From Microcoleus sp. bin48.metabat.b7b8b9.023 (GTDB lineage: Bacteria; Cyanobacteriota; Cyanobacteriia; Cyanobacteriales; Microcoleaceae), in NCBI RefSeq assembly GCF_013299185.1, contig NZ_JAAFKG010000018.1, positions 1 through 64,000 on the forward strand: a stretch of DNA of 64,000 nucleotides, read 5' to 3'. Positions 5,006 through 61,158 of the stretch are shown piece after piece; position 1 is the first letter of the stretch, and the number at the start of each line of letters is the position of its first letter. The notes beneath the pieces were generated by a model. The model worked only from the letters and a program-made list of their open reading frames with translations, was not told the DNA's origin and searched no databases. A program made the position numbers and the translations under genes.

Positions 5006-6088
5006 ATGACACAACAGAACCTGCGGGAACTTCTGAAGCAGGGCGATCCAAAAGCGATCGCATCTAGCATCAACCGTACACTCAAACCCAAAGGCATCAA
5101 CGCCGATGTGACGCGGGACAACGGCTGCCTCCACATAACTCTGGAGTCAGGCAAAGTACCGAGTCAAATGGCATTGGTGGATTTCATCCGCAGCGGGATG
5201 ACGAATTTGGGAGTCGAATCAATTCACACTGTCAAAGTTTACGGGCGTCGCACAGGTGACGGCTCCCCTGCGTGGGAAGATGAAATAGATCTGATGCCCG
5301 CAGATCCAATGCTTTATGCCTCGGATACTGGAATGCCTGACGACTCTGTAGGTTTAGATGATGTCGAACCGGATGGCGAAGACTATTATCAAGAGGGACA
5401 ATTCGATCCAGATGACAACGAGGAAGACGACGAGGAAGACGACGAGGAAGACGAAGACGAAGATGTAGCCCCCCCTCCGAAAAAACAATTCCCAAAATGG
5501 GCAATACCTGTGGGTATCTTAGTGCCTCTGGGGGCGATCGCAGCGCTTTACTTGACTGGAAATTTCCCCTTCGGTGGCGGCTCGAACCCTGAACCGAGCG
5601 CCCCCGAAGCAGCTTCGCCCTCCCCCAAAAAAGCCACATCTCCTGCGTCTAAAGCCACATCTCCATCTCCCAGCGCATCTGGGGAGACCCCACAGGCAGC
5701 ATCTCCTCCTGCACCAAAAGCCGCTCCCACTACTGCTGCTGCGCCCGCGAGCCCTGTTCCCAAACCTCCAGCGCCCAAGGCAGCATCTCCAGCGCCCAAG
5801 GCAGCATCTCCAGCGCCAAAAGCAGCATCTCCTGCACCAAAAGCCGCCGCGCCTAAGCCTGACTCTTGGAGGGAAGGCGTTAACAACGCTCAGAAGGCGG
5901 CAGTTTTGGCACAGACGGCTCAATCTCAAGCAGAGTGGATTGCGGTAGCAAGCGAATGGCAGAAAGCGGTTCAGCTTATGAGAGCCGTGCCGTCAACTAG
6001 CCCCAACCATTCAAAGGCTCAGCAAAAAGCGGCAGAGTATCAGGCAAATCTGATTGTTGCCAACCGCAGGGCGGCGGCAGCGCCTTAA
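5006..6088 (+). CDS. Single-pass membrane protein, acidic and Ala/Pro-rich linkers
   Basis: 360 aa, function unknown. Residues 1-96 form a compact domain found at the N-terminus of various cyanobacterial membrane proteins (RELLKQGDPKAIASSINRTL...IHTVKVYGRRTGD). Residues 97-154 are very acidic (runs of D/E). A transmembrane helix lies at about 164-183, followed by a long Ala/Pro/Ser/Lys-rich linker with near-tandem PAPKAAS repeats at about 250-285. The C-terminal 70 residues form a helical segment rich in Ala and Gln. The DNA repeats in the linker suggest length variation between strains. Start: ATG 5006, no strong Shine-Dalgarno. Confidence 0.8.
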   Translation: MTQQNLRELLKQGDPKAIASSINRTLKPKGINADVTRDNGCLHITLESGKVPSQMALVDFIRSGMTNLGVESIHTVKVYGRRTGDGSPAWEDEIDLMPADPMLYASDTGMPDDSVGLDDVEPDGEDYYQEGQFDPDDNEEDDEEDDEEDEDEDVAPPPKKQFPKWAIPVGILVPLGAIAALYLTGNFPFGGGSNPEPSAPEAASPSPKKATSPASKATSPSPSASGETPQAASPPAPKAAPTTAAAPASPVPKPPAPKAASPAPKAASPAPKAASPAPKAAAPKPDSWREGVNNAQKAAVLAQTAQSQAEWIAVASEWQKAVQLMRAVPSTSPNHSKAQQKAAEYQANLIVANRRAAAAP

Positions 6089-6207
6089 GAGTTTTGAGTT
6101 TTGAGTTTGATACTCGATGTGCTAAAAAGTCAAAAGTCAAAAGTAAAAAGTAAAAATCTTGTTTTTACTCAAAGCTTTATTACTTTTGACTTTTTTGAAT
6201 TTTACTG

Positions 6208-6556
6208 ATATCAAGTCCGGTAGCACCGTCCTGGCTATAATGGCGGTGTGGTGAATATAGCGTGCGATCGTACAATTATGGTCAAGCGTCTGGTTGTTGA
6301 ATCACATCTTTCAGTAGAAGAAGTTGAAGGCAACTACGGTTAGGCATCCGACCCGATCGATCTCACTTGATACCATACGATCTGGCTGGAACGCTAGAAG
6401 ATGGGTAGCCGAAGAGGTAATATTTCATCGCTGTCAGGGCTTAATTCAACAACAAGACTTAATTACTGATTTAACTTTCTTTCATTGGTGGCATTGTTCT
6501 ATTGCTAATTGCGATCGAAGCCCACCATACAAGTCCGGTAGCAGCGGACTTGATAT
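6208..6556 (+). mobile_element. Decayed IS630-like element with terminal inverted repeats
   Basis: The ends ATATCAAGTCCG (6208-6219) and CGGACTTGATAT (6545-6556) are perfect inverted repeats starting at a TA-containing site, as in IS630/Tc1 elements. Around 6285-6410 a broken frame reads HLSVEEVEGNYG, stop, ASDPID, then YHTIWL. This resembles the N-terminal helix-turn-helix of IS630 transposases (HLSxEELxxRY...DPxxRxHYxxIWLL). Only about 350 bp remain, with stops, so it is inactive. Confidence 0.6.
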
Positions 6557-6746
6557 TAAACTTTAATCTATACTGGGAGCATTCTCGGTCAAACAAGTGA
6601 TCATACCATTTTTCTCAAGATCCGATAGAGATCGAGGACGACAAGACATTGTAATTTATCCACTTTCCCTGTTTGCTAAAGTCTGTCATAACTTTAAAAA
6701 AATGGTATAAAGTCACTAAAATTGTCAGAAAAAACTGATTATATTT

Positions 6747-6884
6747 CAATACGGTTTACTTAACACTTTTTATGCCCCGGAGATCCCCCTCGCATCCCCC
6801 TGGTTGTAGGGGGACTTAAGAGCTTTCTTGTCCCCCTCTTGGGAAGGGGGGTTAGGGGGGATCTGCCTTAAGTAAACCGTATTG
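6747..6884. mobile_element. 138-bp MITE with 17-bp inverted ends and 10-bp duplication
   Basis: CAATACGGTTTACTTAA at 6747-6763 is repeated inverted at 6868-6884. The element is flanked by identical GATTATATTT at 6737-6746 and 6885-6894, a clean target-site duplication. The interior is built of CCCCCT/AGGGGG runs like those at 55545-55790. It has no coding capacity. Confidence 0.85.
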
Positions 6885-7022
6885 GATTATATTTGAGACT
6901 TTTTCTTACCAAAGCTGGTTCCAAAATGCTAGAATAAAAATGTCTCCGGTGTCGAAGTTATAGCGGTTAAAAAAAGAATGTAACTGTAGGCAAGCTCCAA
7001 AGCCTGATAGTCATAAGTCATT

Positions 7023-7078
7023 CTAAAATATTTAATTTAAAATATTTAATTTAAAATATTTAATCTAAAATATTTAAT
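7023..7078. repeat. Four tandem 14-bp AT-rich repeats
   Basis: Unit (C/T)TAAAATATTTAAT repeated four times without spacers. Each unit is itself nearly palindromic (AAATATTT). It lies 58 bases downstream of the diguanylate cyclase stop codon. Confidence 0.9.
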
Positions 7079-7136
7079 GGTATTAGTGCCGGATTCGGGT
7101 CAGTGTCTATGCCGAATTCACAAATATTGGCAGAAG

Positions 7137-9395
7137 TCAAGCGCTTGTGGGTGAGGGGAAATTAGTATTGGGTCGGGAAAAGTCAACCGGGCGCACGGGA
7201 GGGGCTGTGCCGTTGGTCTTGGCTGTGGGAGGGTCTGGTTGGTAAACTTGGATGCGATCGCGCCCGAGATCTTTGGCTTGGTACAGCGCTGCGTCGGCTG
7301 CGTCAATCAATATCGAGGCTGGGGATTTAGATGCAGGAACCGTACTCGCTGCTGCGTCGGCTGCGTCAATCACCATAGAGGCTTCGGATTCAGAGATAGG
7401 AACCATAGTCGCTATCCCAAGACTGACAGTGACGTAGTTGCTCACCTGAGAACCAGCGTGAGGAATCTGTAAAGCTGCGATTTTGAGCTGTATGTGTTCG
7501 GCTACCAGCTCGGCCCCTTCACTCGCCGTATTCGGCAAAATAACGGCAAATTCTTCGCCTCCGTAGCGAGCTACTAAATCGGCAGGGCGGTTAATTGCTT
7601 TGCCGATCGCCTGGGCGACTTGCCGCAAACACTCGTCTCCCTTTGGATGTCCGTAGGTATCGTTATAAGTTTTAAAAGAATCAATATCGCACAAAATTAG
7701 GGACAGAGGTGTTTGTTCCCGCGCTTGTCGGTGCCACTCCCTGTCTAAATACTGATCGAACCGACGGCGGTTTGCTAGCTGCGTGAGTTCGTCTAAAGTT
7801 GCTAAACGCTCTAACTTGAGGTTTGCTGCTTGCAACTGCTGGTAGAGTTCTGCTTGTTTGATCGCGATCGCCAACTGAGCTGCCAGAGAAGACAATAACT
7901 CGACTTCCAACTGCATCCACTGTCGGGGACTGCACTGGTGAGCCATCAGCAGTCCCCACAATTCCTCCCCTTGCACTAGCGGTACTACCAAATAAGCTCT
8001 GACTTCAAATTGTGCGAGCAAGTCAATTTGATCGTGCGGCAAATCGGCGGTGGAGACATCCGCGATCGGTCGGATCGCCCGATGTTGGTAGGCTTCAAGA
8101 TAGAACTCGTCAAAACAGAAATTTTCCAGGGTTTCTCCCAGCATCGGCCGACAGTTGAGTGCTACAGATTCCACTGTCACCGCTCCCGTTGCGGGTGTGG
8201 CGCAGTGACTGCCCGTGCAGGGGTTAAAGCGGACGATCATCACTCGATCGGCCTGAAGGAACTGGCGCACTTCTGTCACTGTCGTGCTGAGCACTTCGCC
8301 CAAATCTAGAGACTGGCGGATGTGCTGAGTAATCGTCGCCATCAGCAGTTCCCGTTCGTTTTGCTGTCGCAGCGCCTCTTCTGCCTGCTTGTACTCAGTA
8401 ATATCTTGAGCGGTGCCGAAAATTTGTTTGGGCTTACCCTCTGCTGTGCGGGCGAACACTTGATCGCGGCAGCGAAAGTGGCGCCATTCGCCCGATCGGT
8501 GTTGGAGCCGATAGTCCAACTCCAAAATATGCCCGTCTGCGGCTGAGGGAAATTTTTGCAGGTGGGCTGATAGCCTCGGCAAATCTTCTGGGTACACCAA
8601 ACTGGAGTACAAAGCTGTTTGCATCTGTAAAATTTCTTGGGGAGTGTAGCCTAGCAGCTTAGAAGCTTGACCGTTGACATAGACGTTGCGCTGTTCGGTC
8701 AAGTCGTAAATGTATAGTAAATAAGGCGCCGCATCGGCAATCTGCTGGATGAAATGCTGGCTCTCGCGCAATTCTGCTTCCACCCGCTGGCGCACTTCCA
8801 CTTCTTCCAAAGCTTGATCTCGCATCGTGCGGTAAGCTTGGATGCGGTGGGTGAGGTCGGTTACGTCTTGTATTACCAACAGGGCGTAAAACGATTGACA
8901 GTTTGGTGGGATAAAGCCGTAAGGCGAAATTGAATCCCGAAAGTTTGATGGCAATCCGACACCAACAGAATCTCCTTGTCGCACCATACCATCTGGTTCC
9001 AACTCCACAGTCGATCGAATCAAGTTGGGAATATTCAGTTCTGCAACGCCCGGTGAAAGTGCAGGGACAGCCGTCACAGTAGTTTGCTGGATGCGCTGCT
9101 GGCCCTCTTGCCAAGTTGCCGGAATCAGGTGCTTGTGAATTTGAGAAGAAAAAATTGTTGGCGGGCCTCCTGCAAAGATTTGCTGGAAGCGATTTGCGTA
9201 CTTGAGCTGGCTCAGGTGAGGAAAATGAGTTGTGATCTTGGTTCCCAACATTTGCTCGCGCCCTATTTTCGTCCAGTCTTCCAGACAGGCATTCCAAAAC
9301 AGCACCACAAAATCATCTCGCAGCAGGCAGGCGCCGACTGGTACACTGTCGAGAACTCCAAACTTTTCCTCAATAGTTTTGCTCTCCTCGATCAT
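7137..9395 (-). CDS. Diguanylate cyclase, PAS-PAS-GAF-GGDEF
   Basis: 752 aa, predicted soluble cyclase making c-di-GMP. Domains in order: short N-terminal PAS-like region (about 10-180), PAS/PAC (about 212-335), GAF (about 355-515), GGDEF (about 530-718). The active-site motif is GGEEF at 612-616, and an inhibitory-site RxxD (RPAD, 603-606) sits five residues before it, so product feedback is expected. The GAF resembles phytochrome-type GAFs (RAYLVVPLVQGEELWGLLMAHQC), but the usual Cys-His bilin site reads PHDQ, so ordinary chromophore attachment is doubtful. The ATG overlaps the upstream CheC-like stop as ATGA. Oddity: a 21-residue in-frame duplication (VIDAADAA at 675-682, LIDAADAA at 696-703) inside the GGDEF domain. 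Confidence 0.9.
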   Translation of the reverse strand: MIEESKTIEEKFGVLDSVPVGACLLRDDFVVLFWNACLEDWTKIGREQMLGTKITTHFPHLSQLKYANRFQQIFAGGPPTIFSSQIHKHLIPATWQEGQQRIQQTTVTAVPALSPGVAELNIPNLIRSTVELEPDGMVRQGDSVGVGLPSNFRDSISPYGFIPPNCQSFYALLVIQDVTDLTHRIQAYRTMRDQALEEVEVRQRVEAELRESQHFIQQIADAAPYLLYIYDLTEQRNVYVNGQASKLLGYTPQEILQMQTALYSSLVYPEDLPRLSAHLQKFPSAADGHILELDYRLQHRSGEWRHFRCRDQVFARTAEGKPKQIFGTAQDITEYKQAEEALRQQNERELLMATITQHIRQSLDLGEVLSTTVTEVRQFLQADRVMIVRFNPCTGSHCATPATGAVTVESVALNCRPMLGETLENFCFDEFYLEAYQHRAIRPIADVSTADLPHDQIDLLAQFEVRAYLVVPLVQGEELWGLLMAHQCSPRQWMQLEVELLSSLAAQLAIAIKQAELYQQLQAANLKLERLATLDELTQLANRRRFDQYLDREWHRQAREQTPLSLILCDIDSFKTYNDTYGHPKGDECLRQVAQAIGKAINRPADLVARYGGEEFAVILPNTASEGAELVAEHIQLKIAALQIPHAGSQVSNYVTVSLGIATMVPISESEASMVIDAADAAASTVPASKSPASILIDAADAALYQAKDLGRDRIQVYQPDPPTAKTNGTAPPVRPVDFSRPNTNFPSPTSA

Positions 9396-56799: not shown

Positions 56800-59190
56800 C
56801 TAAACTTCATCGCTCTTACCTATGGCCTTTCGGACTTTCTCAACTTGCTTCGGTGCTTCCATTTCAGTGAAGAGTCGAATCGCCTCTTGAAAATGAGTCT
56901 GACTATTTTCGGTATCACCCATCTTTTGGTGAGTTAAGGCAAGTTGATAATGAGCCTCCGCTAAATCGCATTTAGCGCCGATTTTCTCTAGAAGTGCGAT
57001 CGACTCTGAATGATGGGAAAGGGCTGTTTCAAATTCTCCCTGTATGCGATAGAGTTCTGCTAGGCCACTGAAAGCTTGTCCTTTAACTTGAGTATAGCCA
57101 CTCTCGTCAGCATCTGAGATTACTGTAAGGAAAAGTTGACGAGATTTTTCTAACTCACCCAAATTTTTATAAGTATGGGCAAGAAAAAATAGTTTATTTC
57201 CTCTGCTCCACTCGGTACAAATACCATTAGTCTTATAATTAGAATTTTCATTTTTTTCAGCAAAATGACGTGCTTCTTCAGTTAAACCCAAACATGACTT
57301 AACAAATGCAATGGAAAACCAACAACTCCTGATAGTTCCCGAAATAAGGCCCTCAGAATTAGCAAATAAAATTGACTGCTGAAGAAAATCATCTGCCTTT
57401 TCCAATTCGCCTAAAGCTATTTGACAAAGACCTAAATTCAATAAAGATCCTATTTTATTTTCTCTAAATTTGAGCCTGATTTCTTCCGAGCAATAATTTT
57501 TATTATTTAGAGAATTATTTACTATTTGATAACATTTTTCGTGGCAGTTAATAGCTTTATTTATCTTACCAGTCAACCAGTATAAATCACCTAATATAGT
57601 ATAAAGTAAACTTTTATCTACTAAGTTGATATATATTTCCTCTATAATTAAAACGATTATTTTAATGAGAGTTTCAAATCGCCCTAATCTATAAAAAGAT
57701 TGACCAAGCGCGGCTTTTTTCACCCATTTATTATCTCGCTTTTTTACAAGAACCTGACCTGCTAATTCGTAGTTAGCAATTTCTATATAGTGGAAGTAAG
57801 ATTCTAAAGCTTTCACTGCATCTTCTATAGTTTCAACCGTCAGAACACTATCTCTCCAAAATTCAGCAGCTTTATGATTTGCTTTCTCCAAATCTTCACT
57901 ATCTCTCAACCGTGCGATCGCCTCTGCCCGAATCACTGGATGCAACCAATATTCTCCTTTTAAACCCTCTACTAAAGACCGACTTCGCAAAGAATCAATC
58001 ACGCGCCTGCGCTGTGCTTCTGGCACATCCCACAGTAAGCACAATAAGCCCTCCGTGGGTACAGTCGGCACATCCTGTTGATAGCGATAACATCCCAAAC
58101 GGCAGAGGAGTCGATAGGCTTCGGGATAAGTTTTTGCGAGACGATTAAACTGCTCTTTGACAAGGTTTTCTACAGCTAACTCCACCAATAAACCAGCTTC
58201 AACTTTATGTTCTTGCCAATAGGCTACCATCCCTCCATCTCTCTGTATGGGATCGCATAAAATAGTCATCGCCAAGGCATTACCGCCATAAGCTTTGTGG
58301 ATTTCTTTTAGAGTTGTCACATCTATCTCAATATCGCGACTAAAAAAATCTTGCCACGCTTGTTCATCGAGGCTAGGTAACGAGTAATTGATGATACCTA
58401 CGCCTTCAGCTAAAGGTTCACGACTGGTAATTAACGTTACTGACTGTACCGAATAATCAGCCAAAACTCGCAACAATTCCACATAGCGGCGATGGGGTTC
58501 AATAAATCTGCCTTGTCCATCTAGCGCGGGTTCCAAATTATCAATTAATATCCCCACTCGGCGCGTCTGAAGTTGGCGCTTCAGTCTCCCAAGCGTAACT
58601 CCAAACTCCCGCCCAGGTTCTTCCTGAAAGTCCCGCTTCAGCCATTCTTCAATCACACTTTCAACCAGGGTAATATTTTCTTTCTCCTTTGCCATTAGCA
58701 ATTCCAGCACTAAGTCAAAACCCTGAGAGTTGAGATATTCCTGTGCCAAAGTTGTTTTGCCCACACCGCCGGGTGCTTGGATGACGATGATTTTTGCGCC
58801 TTGGTTGATCCGGATGTTGAGGTAGTCGATCGCCCTTTCCCGTCCCACAAAATTCTGGTTGGGTATTGAGGGATGTGCGATCGGCCCTTCACCATCTACA
58901 AAATCTGACTCTGGCTGCTGTCGCAAATAGTCTCGGATCTTCGGCAGCCAGGAGGACTTATTGATTCGTTTCACTTCTCCCATTTCCAGGGCGATCGCCT
59001 CACTGATGTCCGCGCTGACTCGTTTGGCATGGCTTTGGCTGTAACCGCTATCCTTGGCAGCATTCTGGATCGTCTTACCCTGCAAAAACTGATCGATCAG
59101 ACTGCACTGGGCATCAGTTAAAGGACTATTTTGAAAAGCTGACAAAGCTTTTTTGACCCAATTGACCATTGCGGTGCGATCGTCGCCCAT
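56800..59190 (-). CDS. HTH-STAND ATPase with TPR repeats
   Basis: 796 aa. N-terminal helix-turn-helix (about 20-70: DAQCSLIDQFLQGKTIQNAA then KDSGYSQSHAKRVS), spacer, then a STAND/NB-ARC-type ATPase: NQNFVGRERAID, Walker A APGGVGKTT (139-147), Walker B GILIDNLEP (D218), sensor TLITSREP and a winged-helix region (LHPVIRAEAIARL). The C-terminal 300 residues contain TPR repeats (GSLLNLGLCQIALGELEKAD; ALSHHSESIALLEKIG; AHYQLALTHQKMGDTENSQT). It is probably an inducer-sensing switch, with transcriptional or defence-type output. It is divergent from the oxygenase/AlaX pair. Confidence 0.87.
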   Translation of the reverse strand: MGDDRTAMVNWVKKALSAFQNSPLTDAQCSLIDQFLQGKTIQNAAKDSGYSQSHAKRVSADISEAIALEMGEVKRINKSSWLPKIRDYLRQQPESDFVDGEGPIAHPSIPNQNFVGRERAIDYLNIRINQGAKIIVIQAPGGVGKTTLAQEYLNSQGFDLVLELLMAKEKENITLVESVIEEWLKRDFQEEPGREFGVTLGRLKRQLQTRRVGILIDNLEPALDGQGRFIEPHRRYVELLRVLADYSVQSVTLITSREPLAEGVGIINYSLPSLDEQAWQDFFSRDIEIDVTTLKEIHKAYGGNALAMTILCDPIQRDGGMVAYWQEHKVEAGLLVELAVENLVKEQFNRLAKTYPEAYRLLCRLGCYRYQQDVPTVPTEGLLCLLWDVPEAQRRRVIDSLRSRSLVEGLKGEYWLHPVIRAEAIARLRDSEDLEKANHKAAEFWRDSVLTVETIEDAVKALESYFHYIEIANYELAGQVLVKKRDNKWVKKAALGQSFYRLGRFETLIKIIVLIIEEIYINLVDKSLLYTILGDLYWLTGKINKAINCHEKCYQIVNNSLNNKNYCSEEIRLKFRENKIGSLLNLGLCQIALGELEKADDFLQQSILFANSEGLISGTIRSCWFSIAFVKSCLGLTEEARHFAEKNENSNYKTNGICTEWSRGNKLFFLAHTYKNLGELEKSRQLFLTVISDADESGYTQVKGQAFSGLAELYRIQGEFETALSHHSESIALLEKIGAKCDLAEAHYQLALTHQKMGDTENSQTHFQEAIRLFTEMEAPKQVEKVRKAIGKSDEV

Positions 59191-59642
59191 AGACCAAAAG
59201 ATACTTTTTAACGTTGCTTTAGTGTACCATCAAAACCATTGCCATTACAAGGCTTTGGGTAAAACAAGTTTGGTCTTTACAGATTCGTTTCAGGAGAAGG
59301 AAACATAAAATGATACTTTTTAGTTCAAAAAAGACTCATGCGCTTTCTAGCTAGTCACCCGAACTCTAGACAAACCCAGAAGCCTTGTCAATTCTAGATT
59401 TTAGGTATCCGAATATAGTTTTGTCTGTTTTCACAGTCTTAATAGGGCGATCGAAAAGTATGAATATTTTTGTTGAAAGTTGATACAAAAAAGACTAGCT
59501 CATTAAAAAATAAGTCGATATTGTAGAACTTAATTGAGCAAGAATTTTTGTGAAGAGCAATATTCTTACTTGCAGCGATCCTTGTCTCCAAAACTTCGGC
59601 TCTAACTGATCCGAACTATACACTTCTTAAAGGAATCTGGTC
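59191..59642. promoter_or_regulatory. 450-bp divergent promoter region
   Basis: Between the STAND gene and the oxygenase. Contains AGATACTTTTTA/TGATACTTTTTA at 59205 and 59310 and AAAAAAGACT at 59325 and 59487. These direct repeats could be binding sites. No gene. Confidence 0.4.
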
Positions 59643-60467
59643 ATGCTGGCACAAACTACAGAAACAAAGACAGGTGAAGATGGTTTTTTGAATTTAGAAA
59701 GAGTGCTTAACTCAGAGGCAATTCTAGCTCTCATAAAAGGTGAATTACTCGCTATTCGAGTTCGTCATTACTATCCTGAGATTTTCTGTCAACGAGTACA
59801 AGAACGGTTGTCTAGTGAAGAACGAATGGGAGTCTATTCAACTGTTGGTGCGGAAGAGATTGGTCGCGATCGTCTTTCCTATTACGAAACACACAATGAC
59901 CCAGTACATTGGCAGCAATACTATGCCCAAGCTGGATACAACATTCGAGAAATTCGAGAAATTTTCGATCCTTACTATTCACCAATCGATCGACTGCGAC
60001 TCAACTTAGACGAAGTATGGCCCGCCGGAGCACATCTCGAAAATATTGATGGTCTACCTATGTTTGTTGGGTTGACTCGTCTTCTTAAACAAGGGTCTTA
60101 CATTTTCCCTCACAATGACAATATTCAAGAGGATTCCAATTTCAATCCGCGCGCCAAAGAAATTCGCATTCAGCTTGCGGCAAACGTTTACCTCAATATG
60201 CCAGAGTCAGGAGGCAGCTTGTTATTATGGGATGCTTCTATGCTTCCAGAAAATTTATCACATTGCCGTCGTGAAGACGCCTACGGATTTGACCCTGAAA
60301 AGATTGGCCCTCCTAAGCTTGAAATTAAACCAGAGATTGGCGATTTAATACTGTTTAACTCCCGTTATCTTCATTCTGTATCGCCTGTTGGTGTTGGCGG
60401 ACGCTTGAGTAGCTCTTGCTTTATTGGTTTTCGTTCTTTCAATTGTCCGCTGTCTTACTGGAGCTAG
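59643..60467 (+). CDS. 2-oxoglutarate/Fe(II)-dependent oxygenase
   Basis: 274 aa. The double-stranded beta helix shows the facial triad H157-x-D159 (YIFPHNDN) and H244 (RYLHSVSPV), and R254 for 2-oxoglutarate (GGRLSSSCFIGF). LQLAANVYLNMPESGGSLLLW-type strands fit prolyl/amino-acid hydroxylase relatives. The N-terminal 130 residues are family-specific. AAAGGAATCTGGTC precedes the ATG. Its partner gene, 40 bases downstream, encodes an AlaX-type tRNA editing protein, so a free amino acid substrate is the favoured guess; a protein or natural-product substrate is not excluded. Confidence 0.85.
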   Translation: MLAQTTETKTGEDGFLNLERVLNSEAILALIKGELLAIRVRHYYPEIFCQRVQERLSSEERMGVYSTVGAEEIGRDRLSYYETHNDPVHWQQYYAQAGYNIREIREIFDPYYSPIDRLRLNLDEVWPAGAHLENIDGLPMFVGLTRLLKQGSYIFPHNDNIQEDSNFNPRAKEIRIQLAANVYLNMPESGGSLLLWDASMLPENLSHCRREDAYGFDPEKIGPPKLEIKPEIGDLILFNSRYLHSVSPVGVGGRLSSSCFIGFRSFNCPLSYWS

Positions 60468-60507
60468 TGACTACTGTTTCTGACACTTTAATTTAGAGGT
60501 TTTGATT

Positions 60508-61158
60508 GTGACTACTCTTAAGCTTTACCTAAAAGACTCAGAACTCTCGGAAGCAACTGCAAAGATCGTTGAATTGATTAATGGTGAGCAACCGATTATT
60601 CGCCTCGATCAAACTATTTTTCACGCTCAAGGAGGAGGACAAAAATCTGACATTGGCTTGATTGACAATATTCTTGTCACTCACGCCTCTCATTCTGGTA
60701 ACTATGTCGATCATTATGTTTCAGATTTCGGAAATCTCGAAGTTGGGCAGGACGTAAATATTTCAATTGATATCAACAATCGTTTGATTCATTCCAATCA
60801 CCATGTTGCAGGTCATTTGATTGCAGCATTAATTGAAAAAAGTTTCCCCGATTTGCAAGCAACGGCAGGGCATCATTGGCCTGGACAATCACGAGTTGAA
60901 TTTTCAGGAACCCTACCACCAATTGAGAAGGTTCAAGAAAGCTTGAAATCCGATCTGGCAGAGGCAATCATTGAAAATCTACCTGTACAAGTCAAGGGCG
61001 ATCCTTACGGCTGTCGCAAGATTGCGATCGGAGATTTTCCTGCTGTCTCTTGTGGTGGAACACATCCTAAATCTCTTGGCACGTTGAAAGAAGTAGAAGT
61101 GACTAAAGTTAAATCGCAGAAAGGAGTGCTGAGAGTTAGCTACTCTGTAGCAAATTAG
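60508..61158 (+). CDS. AlaX-type aminoacyl-tRNA editing protein
   Basis: 216 aa stand-alone homologue of the AlaRS editing domain, which hydrolyses mischarged aminoacyl-tRNA (classically Ser-tRNA(Ala)). Zinc site: H99-x3-H103 (HHVAGH) and C182-x3-H186 (CGGTH). HAQGGGQKSD is the conserved glycine-rich motif. I chose GTG 60508, eight bases after AGAGG; a TTG at 60502 is an alternative. It is co-directional with the oxygenase, gap 40 bases, so they probably form one operon. No AlaRS catalytic domain is present. Confidence 0.9.
   Translation: MTTLKLYLKDSELSEATAKIVELINGEQPIIRLDQTIFHAQGGGQKSDIGLIDNILVTHASHSGNYVDHYVSDFGNLEVGQDVNISIDINNRLIHSNHHVAGHLIAALIEKSFPDLQATAGHHWPGQSRVEFSGTLPPIEKVQESLKSDLAEAIIENLPVQVKGDPYGCRKIAIGDFPAVSCGGTHPKSLGTLKEVEVTKVKSQKGVLRVSYSVAN

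Follow-up and report, generated by a model that had tools for sequence, protein, structure and literature searches.

The oxygenase and its neighbouring tRNA editing protein

The stretch of DNA analysed here (the window) comprises positions 1 to 64,000 of contig NZ_JAAFKG010000018.1 from Microcoleus sp. bin48.metabat.b7b8b9.023, a cyanobacterium of the Microcoleaceae. Near its end, two adjacent genes on the forward strand encode an Fe(II)/2-oxoglutarate (2OG) oxygenase of the hydroxylase type (OX; 59643-60467; 274 amino acids) and a free-standing tRNA editing protein of the alanyl-tRNA synthetase (AlaRS) type, AlaX (60508-61158; AlaX-M type, 216 amino acids, GTG start). A sequence-only reading of this DNA had described the two genes as complete, co-directional and 40 bases apart, and had proposed that they form a production-plus-self-protection module. 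The open reading frame (ORF) listing agreed that OX is intact and full-length and AlaX complete, and the 40-bp gap with its GTG start was identical in four relatives whose OX proteins share 92-97% identity with that of the window; an alternative TTG start at 60502, given by the ORF tool, would shorten the gap to 34 bp. Both genes are under purifying selection, with ratios of nonsynonymous to synonymous substitution rates (dN/dS) against the four relatives of 0.11-0.20 for OX and 0.13-0.24 for AlaX.

Pfam models placed OX with WelO5 (1.4e-13) and 2OG-FeII_Oxy_3 (6.7e-9). The motif residues named in the sequence-only reading were borne out by an alignment of 77 rows, some of them duplicate loci: H157 and D159 were present in 77/77 rows and H244 and R254 in 76/77, the sole exception being a truncated frame (L022; loci and genomes carry our L and G numbers). 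By motif and predicted model, OX thus has the PF13640-type arrangement HxD...H...R within the family fold. R105 and the stretches SPIDxLR and LDExWPAG are specific to the family. The AlphaFold model of OX (predicted local distance difference test, pLDDT, 84.4) aligned with WelO5 over 251 residues (Z 24.9, 2.9 Å) and with 3w21, titled N-substituted L-amino acid dioxygenase, over 223 residues (Z 17.0, 4.0 Å). WelO5 was the best match of OX by fold and by profile and has the same C-terminal WS; a 41-sequence OX profile retrieved it at 3e-13, and also chain 3w20 (3.3e-8), whose entry title in the fold search is again N-substituted L-amino acid dioxygenase. WelO5 has a glycine at the iron site, in agreement with the title of entry 5iqu, a G166D variant. 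Halogenases of this type carry HxG where OX has the hydroxylase aspartate of HxD, and the HxD in 77/77 rows therefore rules out a WelO5-like halogenase. On the same ground we dropped an identification of the Streptomyces cattleya OX (L025) as BesD, since L025 carries HxD; the absence of BesD from the best 50 fold matches listed for OX says nothing either way.

OX scored 31.1 bits (E 1.4e-7) against the NCBIfam HilA model, well short of the equivalog cut-off of 500, and by this measure is only remote kin of HilA. A search with HilA sequences gave 0 matches at E <= 1e-30 in 298 Pseudomonadaceae genomes and also 0 in 14 controls, so that this search is unproven and only the score of the NCBIfam model stands. 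WelO5 and HilA both take free small molecules as substrates. The 7.5-Mb genome contains a single copy of OX, which is acidic (pI 5.2); AlaX is acidic too, which makes this value uninformative on tRNA binding by OX. OX probably hydroxylates a small amino acid.

AlaX matched the NCBIfam AlaXM model at 1.2e-25 (90.7 bits) and missed its equivalog cut-off of 300, which by sequence assigns it to the same superfamily as AlaXM but not to the named equivalog. The editing-domain motifs noted in the earlier reading, H99xxxH103 and C182xxxH186 (numbered from the GTG codon as 1), were intact in 32/32 paired AlaX after exclusion of one broken copy (L020), and the GGGQ motif of AlaX-M was also found. The AlphaFold model (pLDDT 92.7) resembled Pyrococcus furiosus AlaX-M, with template modelling (TM) scores of 0.90 to 9iuw and 0.89 to 2e1b; the top match by E-value was 3kew (TM 0.87).

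In the window genome AlaX has one other match, a 917-aa frame of AlaRS size, and in 5/5 module genomes searched the module AlaX was the only strong free-standing AlaX. Among 10 genomes with OX but without a neighbouring AlaX, seven had only AlaRS-sized matches and three had one weak shorter match. In a tree of 51 AlaX, 25 paired sequences, 11 LysR-linked ones and 3 others formed one clan (support 100/99), outside which 12 other AlaX fell. The tree was rooted at the midpoint, and its background was small and found using the same model; from the first set it left out 11 loci that were broken or near-duplicates, and from the second it took 25/72 loci, the 29 four-gene loci of Pseudomonadaceae described below not being among them. 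AlaX without OX were nested among the paired ones, implying repeated loss or gain of OX. Taken together, these sequence relationships suggest that AlaX is a dedicated editor of the module. A different free-standing AlaX subfamily occurs in three other cyanobacteria (L217, L218, L219), with an adjoining GTPase-like gene in L218.

Conserved linkage across genomes and plasmids

Scanning 84,980 species genomes returned 54 OX loci, L020, L035, L036 and L037 being excluded from these counts and from the neighbourhood comparison; seven loci (duplicates, truncated or remote) were dropped from one comparison set. Because the scan was queried with four AlaX-paired oxygenases, this sample leans towards pairs. 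AlaX adjoined OX at 26 of the 54 loci (25 on the same strand), a LysE-type exporter gene at 20, and both at 18. The hosts of the pair include Cyanobacteria, Beta- and Gammaproteobacteria, Chlamydiota (in divergent orientation) and Verrucomicrobiota, to which Embleya adds Actinomycetota. OX was matched in 16 plasmid records, and in at least seven of them AlaX adjoined it: two from Photobacterium (one with broken genes) and those from Acinetobacter, Achromobacter, Caballeronia, Undibacterium and Embleya, the Achromobacter and Acinetobacter plasmids both being 6362 bp long.

Whole-genome searches, with statistics that ignore kinship, gave a second view of the linkage. In 298 genomes of the Pseudomonadaceae (a family label inferred from G302, the P. 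oryzihabitans genome of L047), OX was found at E <= 1e-15 in 40 genomes and 41 loci, and all 29 loci with an OX of the module clade (E < 1e-109) adjoined AlaX. Co-occurrence of OX and AlaX was strong in this family (Fisher 2e-26, uncorrected for kinship). Close-family AlaX (E < 1e-70) occurred in 52 genomes, each time with a divergent LysR gene (52/52); 29 of these loci have the order LysR-AlaX-OX-LysE, two are LysR-AlaX-LysE and 21 are LysR-AlaX, where absence of OX or LysE was judged within 1.5-2 kb and OX was then searched in the whole genomes. In 291 genomes of the cyanobacterial order, 15 contained OX and four of these had it next to AlaX; the four close-family AlaX among the matches listed were exactly those adjoining OX, and three remote free-standing AlaX (E 2e-22 to 2e-24), also among the matches listed, lay away from OX. 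The adjacency is thus not peculiar to the Microcoleus genome, the check that the sequence-only reading had called for, and recurs in five phyla.

Cassette forms, regulators and exporters

The most frequent cassette in beta- and gammaproteobacteria is a LysR gene divergent from AlaX-OX-LysE, whereas the cyanobacterial form is a STAND gene divergent from OX-AlaX and the Embleya form is OX-AlaX-MFS. One locus (L043) combines a LuxR-type regulator, OX, AlaX, an EamA transporter and an ATP-grasp protein. LysR and LysE were named by Pfam at L045; at other loci they were recognised with models derived from neighbours of this kind. The LysE of L045, the only exporter scanned, best matched the homoserine/threonine efflux family (4e-43, 147 bits, cut-off 184) and also RhtC (4e-29).

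Related sets occur on plasmids. A 15-kb Acinetobacter plasmid carries LysR-AlaX-LysE (L149 3420-5710), and LysR adjoins AlaX on Klebsiella (L151 2889-4540) and Ewingella (L150 2917-4687) plasmids, all with no OX within the stretch fetched; these sets resemble portable resistance cassettes. On plasmid p1 of P. tremae (L155 3228-5263), an AlaX of a different subfamily lies between a thioesterase-like gene and LysE, after annotated coronamic acid genes, and the order thioesterase-AlaX-LysE recurs at L207 (1225-3282). We count this AlaX and LysE, as a tail on the pathway that makes coronamic acid, an amino acid not used in proteins, in favour of the module proposed here. In strain DC3000, CmaT and CmaU are given as PSPTO_4712 and PSPTO_4714, leaving one number between them (PMC7146990); that the intervening gene is the same AlaX is perhaps so, as a guess.

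In the window, the pair is divergent from a gene on the reverse strand (56800-59190) for a STAND-type protein with NB-ARC and TPR domains (Pfam), as the earlier reading had observed. A STAND protein 50% identical over 693 columns, an alignment that excludes the N-terminal 117 residues of the window protein, is again divergent from OX-AlaX in a cyanobacterium of a different family (G191, L026), whose OX is 40% identical to that of the window. With the divergent STAND gene common to two distant cyanobacterial families, the STAND protein is a probable regulator of OX-AlaX. The region between the two divergent genes (59191-59642) is a probable promoter/operator, in which, by eye, GATACTTTTTA is repeated at 59200 (59200-59210) and 59312 and CAAAAAAGACT at about 59326 and 59486. 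The repeat-bearing stretches (59200-59210, 59312-59336 and 59484-59499) were seen in five aligned relatives, although mean identity over the region as a whole is 94%, which makes conservation of the repeats weak evidence by itself; the repeats are possible operators. Phages gave no match, a single pattern tried on viral contigs gave 23 pattern matches and 0 relatives, and PHROGs and PADLOC returned nothing beyond generic 2OG and TPR matches and one match of unknown function.

Other OX clades, without AlaX, occupy settings that look biosynthetic. Six OX loci from Pseudomonas, Nocardia, Mycolicibacterium and Streptomyces have a common neighbour family, several with an MFS transporter; this neighbour, typed at L070, is a tRNA-dependent cyclodipeptide synthase (TIGR04539, 3.2e-12, 46.5 bits, cut-off 45), with the Pfam CDPS model falling just below its cut-off. 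Thus a sister clade of OX (L070 6656-7504; L080 6795-7523), with members in Pseudomonas gingeri and Nocardia among others, goes with a divergent family of such synthases. Polyketide synthase (PKS) genes lie upstream of OX in Dolichospermum, and at L069 (5118-8975) tandem OX genes are followed by an MFS transporter and a serine/threonine-dehydratase-like protein, without AlaX. Tandem OX genes without AlaX also occur at L061 and L066 (both 5908-7570). Two OX frames are extended (L064 4912-6840, 642 aa; L062 5053-6807, 584 aa), with true starts uncertain and no Pfam family at 1e-4 in their N-terminal extensions.

A candidate production and self-protection module

We give about even odds (roughly 0.5) to OX and AlaX forming a production-plus-self-protection module; its core, that AlaX clears tRNA mischarged with an amino acid that OX handles, is common to this reading and to the detoxification alternative below and seems to us likely. 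OX would act on a free amino acid that is small and probably aliphatic, hydroxylating it to a threonine- or homoserine-like product that mimics a protein amino acid and would be loaded on tRNA by a synthetase; AlaX would then hydrolyse the mischarged tRNA and spare the producer's own proteins. In many beta- and gammaproteobacteria LysR would sense the amino acid and the LysE-type exporter would expel it, and in Microcoleus-type cyanobacteria the STAND protein probably controls the pair. A small, amino-acid-like substrate is favoured by the LysE-type exporter in the operon and by the kinship of OX with HilA, the N-substituted amino acid dioxygenase and WelO5. This part of the proposal of the sequence-only reading therefore gained ground, while the mischarging, and the role of OX as maker and not destroyer of a toxin, are steps that we infer. 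Since the AlaX proteins known so far act on Ser- and Gly-tRNA(Ala) (PMC11295145), their editing pocket would probably have to change only slightly to accommodate small hydroxy-amino acids.

A close functional parallel is FthB/FthC of Streptomyces cattleya, a fluorothreonyl-tRNA deacylase and a transporter described as guarding the organism against the amino-acid analogue that it makes (PMC7162832). Protection of a producer by a dedicated deacylase acting in trans, together with a transporter, is known for FthB/FthC and proposed for the module, but FthB is related to ProXp-ST1 of the INS superfamily (PMC11295145), whereas the module editor has a predicted AlaRS-type fold and its producer would be an oxygenase. 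Homology of AlaX with FthB was rejected on this ProXp-ST1 kinship, leaving an analogy, and the S. cattleya AlaX (L092) was not called FthB, with 0 transaldolase matches in the four neighbouring ORFs scanned. Editor, oxygenase and exporter were linked in the 18/54 loci noted above.

Hil and IDO operons (HilA/HilB; IDO plus RhtA) are a further parallel. Hil operons, in which HilA (PF13640) converts L-isoleucine in E. coli cells and yields hydroxy-amino acids, comprise LysR, PF13640 and PF10014 dioxygenases, RhtA, an ATP-grasp ligase, MFS and PALP genes (PMC3684760). They resemble the module in LysR, in a PF13640 oxygenase on a free amino acid and, in some cases, in exporter, ATP-grasp, MFS or PALP genes; the OX-AlaX-EamA-ATP-grasp locus L043 and the MFS/dehydratase-like setting of L069 are Hil-like. 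However, OX is only remotely HilA-like, and tRNA is named 0 times in the main text of PMC3684760. HilB (PF10014) and HilC (PF00106) were not at the immediate flanks of the window pair (STAND, Uma2); further genes were not scanned for them. AlaX matches AlaX-M in predicted fold, GGGQ, HxxxH and CxxxH, but differs from the known Ser/Gly-tRNA(Ala) editors in belonging to a clan tied to OX, LysR and LysE. CtdA, a canavanyl-tRNA(Arg) deacylase, is likewise a free-standing editor next to genes handling a toxic amino acid (PMC10018355), but a B3/4-type protein tied to the breakdown of a foreign compound. That a producer may encode both a trans-editing enzyme and a transporter is already known, whereas no description of an AlaX-fold editor with a 2OG oxygenase, LysR and LysE, or of an AlaX-oxygenase-exporter module, was found in the open-access (PMC) literature, mostly without full-text check.

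Several observations weigh against production with self-protection. AlaX was not adjacent at 28/54 OX loci of the genome scan, at 11/15 cyanobacterial OX, or, by coordinates, at any of the remaining 12/41 Pseudomonadaceae OX, and two Stenotrophomonas loci have OX-LysE in genomes with only AlaRS-sized AlaX matches. Conversely, 23/52 Pseudomonadaceae AlaX genomes are without a module-clade OX, which fits detoxification equally; among them, G566 carries a remote OX elsewhere in its genome, on a different contig, and AlaX of G331 (L205) lies near a contig end. The OX linked to cyclodipeptide synthase indicates that some family members may take other substrates. In the window the genes on either side of the pair are STAND and Uma2, and the genome has 0 PF01810 (LysE) matches in a search whose control was positive in 11/14 genomes, other exporter families not having been searched; the missing LysE is a gap in the model. 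The interpretation as a whole is built on purifying selection, intact motifs, predicted folds and the content and conserved linkage of the genes.

We favour production with self-protection over detoxification, with neither proven. Under detoxification, the cassette would be a resistance island against a foreign toxic amino acid, which LysR senses, AlaX clears from tRNA, OX destroys by hydroxylation and LysE exports. The LysR-AlaX (21/52) and LysR-AlaX-LysE (2/52) loci in Pseudomonadaceae genomes without module-clade OX, the corresponding sets on the Acinetobacter, Klebsiella and Ewingella plasmids, the carriage of AlaX-OX-LysE by a 6.4-kb mobilizable plasmid and the precedent of CtdA, known to edit against an amino acid of foreign origin (PMC10018355), all fit such a role. 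The cassettes without OX fit resistance, yet leave the maker of the toxin unshown. The biosynthesis-like settings of related OX (near ATP-grasp and EamA, cyclodipeptide synthase and MFS, or PKS genes) and the production of hydroxy-amino acids by HilA, the nearest characterised kin considered (PMC3684760), argue the other way, and we regard detoxification as a serious but somewhat unlikely alternative.

The substrate of OX might instead be a peptide, a cyclodipeptide, a lipid or an N-substituted amino acid, as the cyclodipeptide synthase beside a related clade and the title of fold match 3w21 suggest; since the AlaX-OX-LysE loci keep LysR, AlaX and LysE as neighbours with no peptide-making gene, and the exporter scanned (L045) is of the amino-acid type, we think this unlikely. 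Slightly less probable still is that AlaX proofreads Ser/Gly-tRNA(Ala) in the ordinary way and that its linkage reflects co-regulation only: its catalytic motifs are all canonical and its predicted AlaX-M fold is ordinary, but close-family free-standing AlaX occurred in only 4/291 cyanobacterial-order genomes among the matches listed, always adjoining OX, a divergent LysR gene stood at AlaX in 52/52 Pseudomonadaceae, and AlaRS-sized frames that match the editing domain occur as well. That OX hydroxylates an amino acid esterified to tRNA, with AlaX as the releasing esterase, appears very unlikely, even though in two unrelated settings the neighbour of OX is an enzyme that uses tRNA: AlaX and, at L070, cyclodipeptide synthase. 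The Stenotrophomonas OX-LysE genomes without a free-standing AlaX match, the 23/52 AlaX genomes without module-clade OX, the free substrate of WelO5 and, weakly, the acidic pI of OX stand against it. For HilA, work on a free small molecule is described in PMC3684760. The broader form of this idea, in which tRNA serves as a carrier for amino-acid tailoring and AlaX, or cyclodipeptide synthase in the sister clade, releases the modified residue, is the least probable of these alternatives.

If production with self-protection, or at least its core, is true, free-standing AlaX would do more than edit Ser/Gly-tRNA(Ala), and one family of tRNA proofreaders would have been recruited to confer resistance to a class of amino-acid poisons, whether made by the cell or of foreign origin. 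Genome mining could then take an AlaX gene next to oxygenase and exporter genes as a sign of amino-acid antimetabolites still to be discovered.
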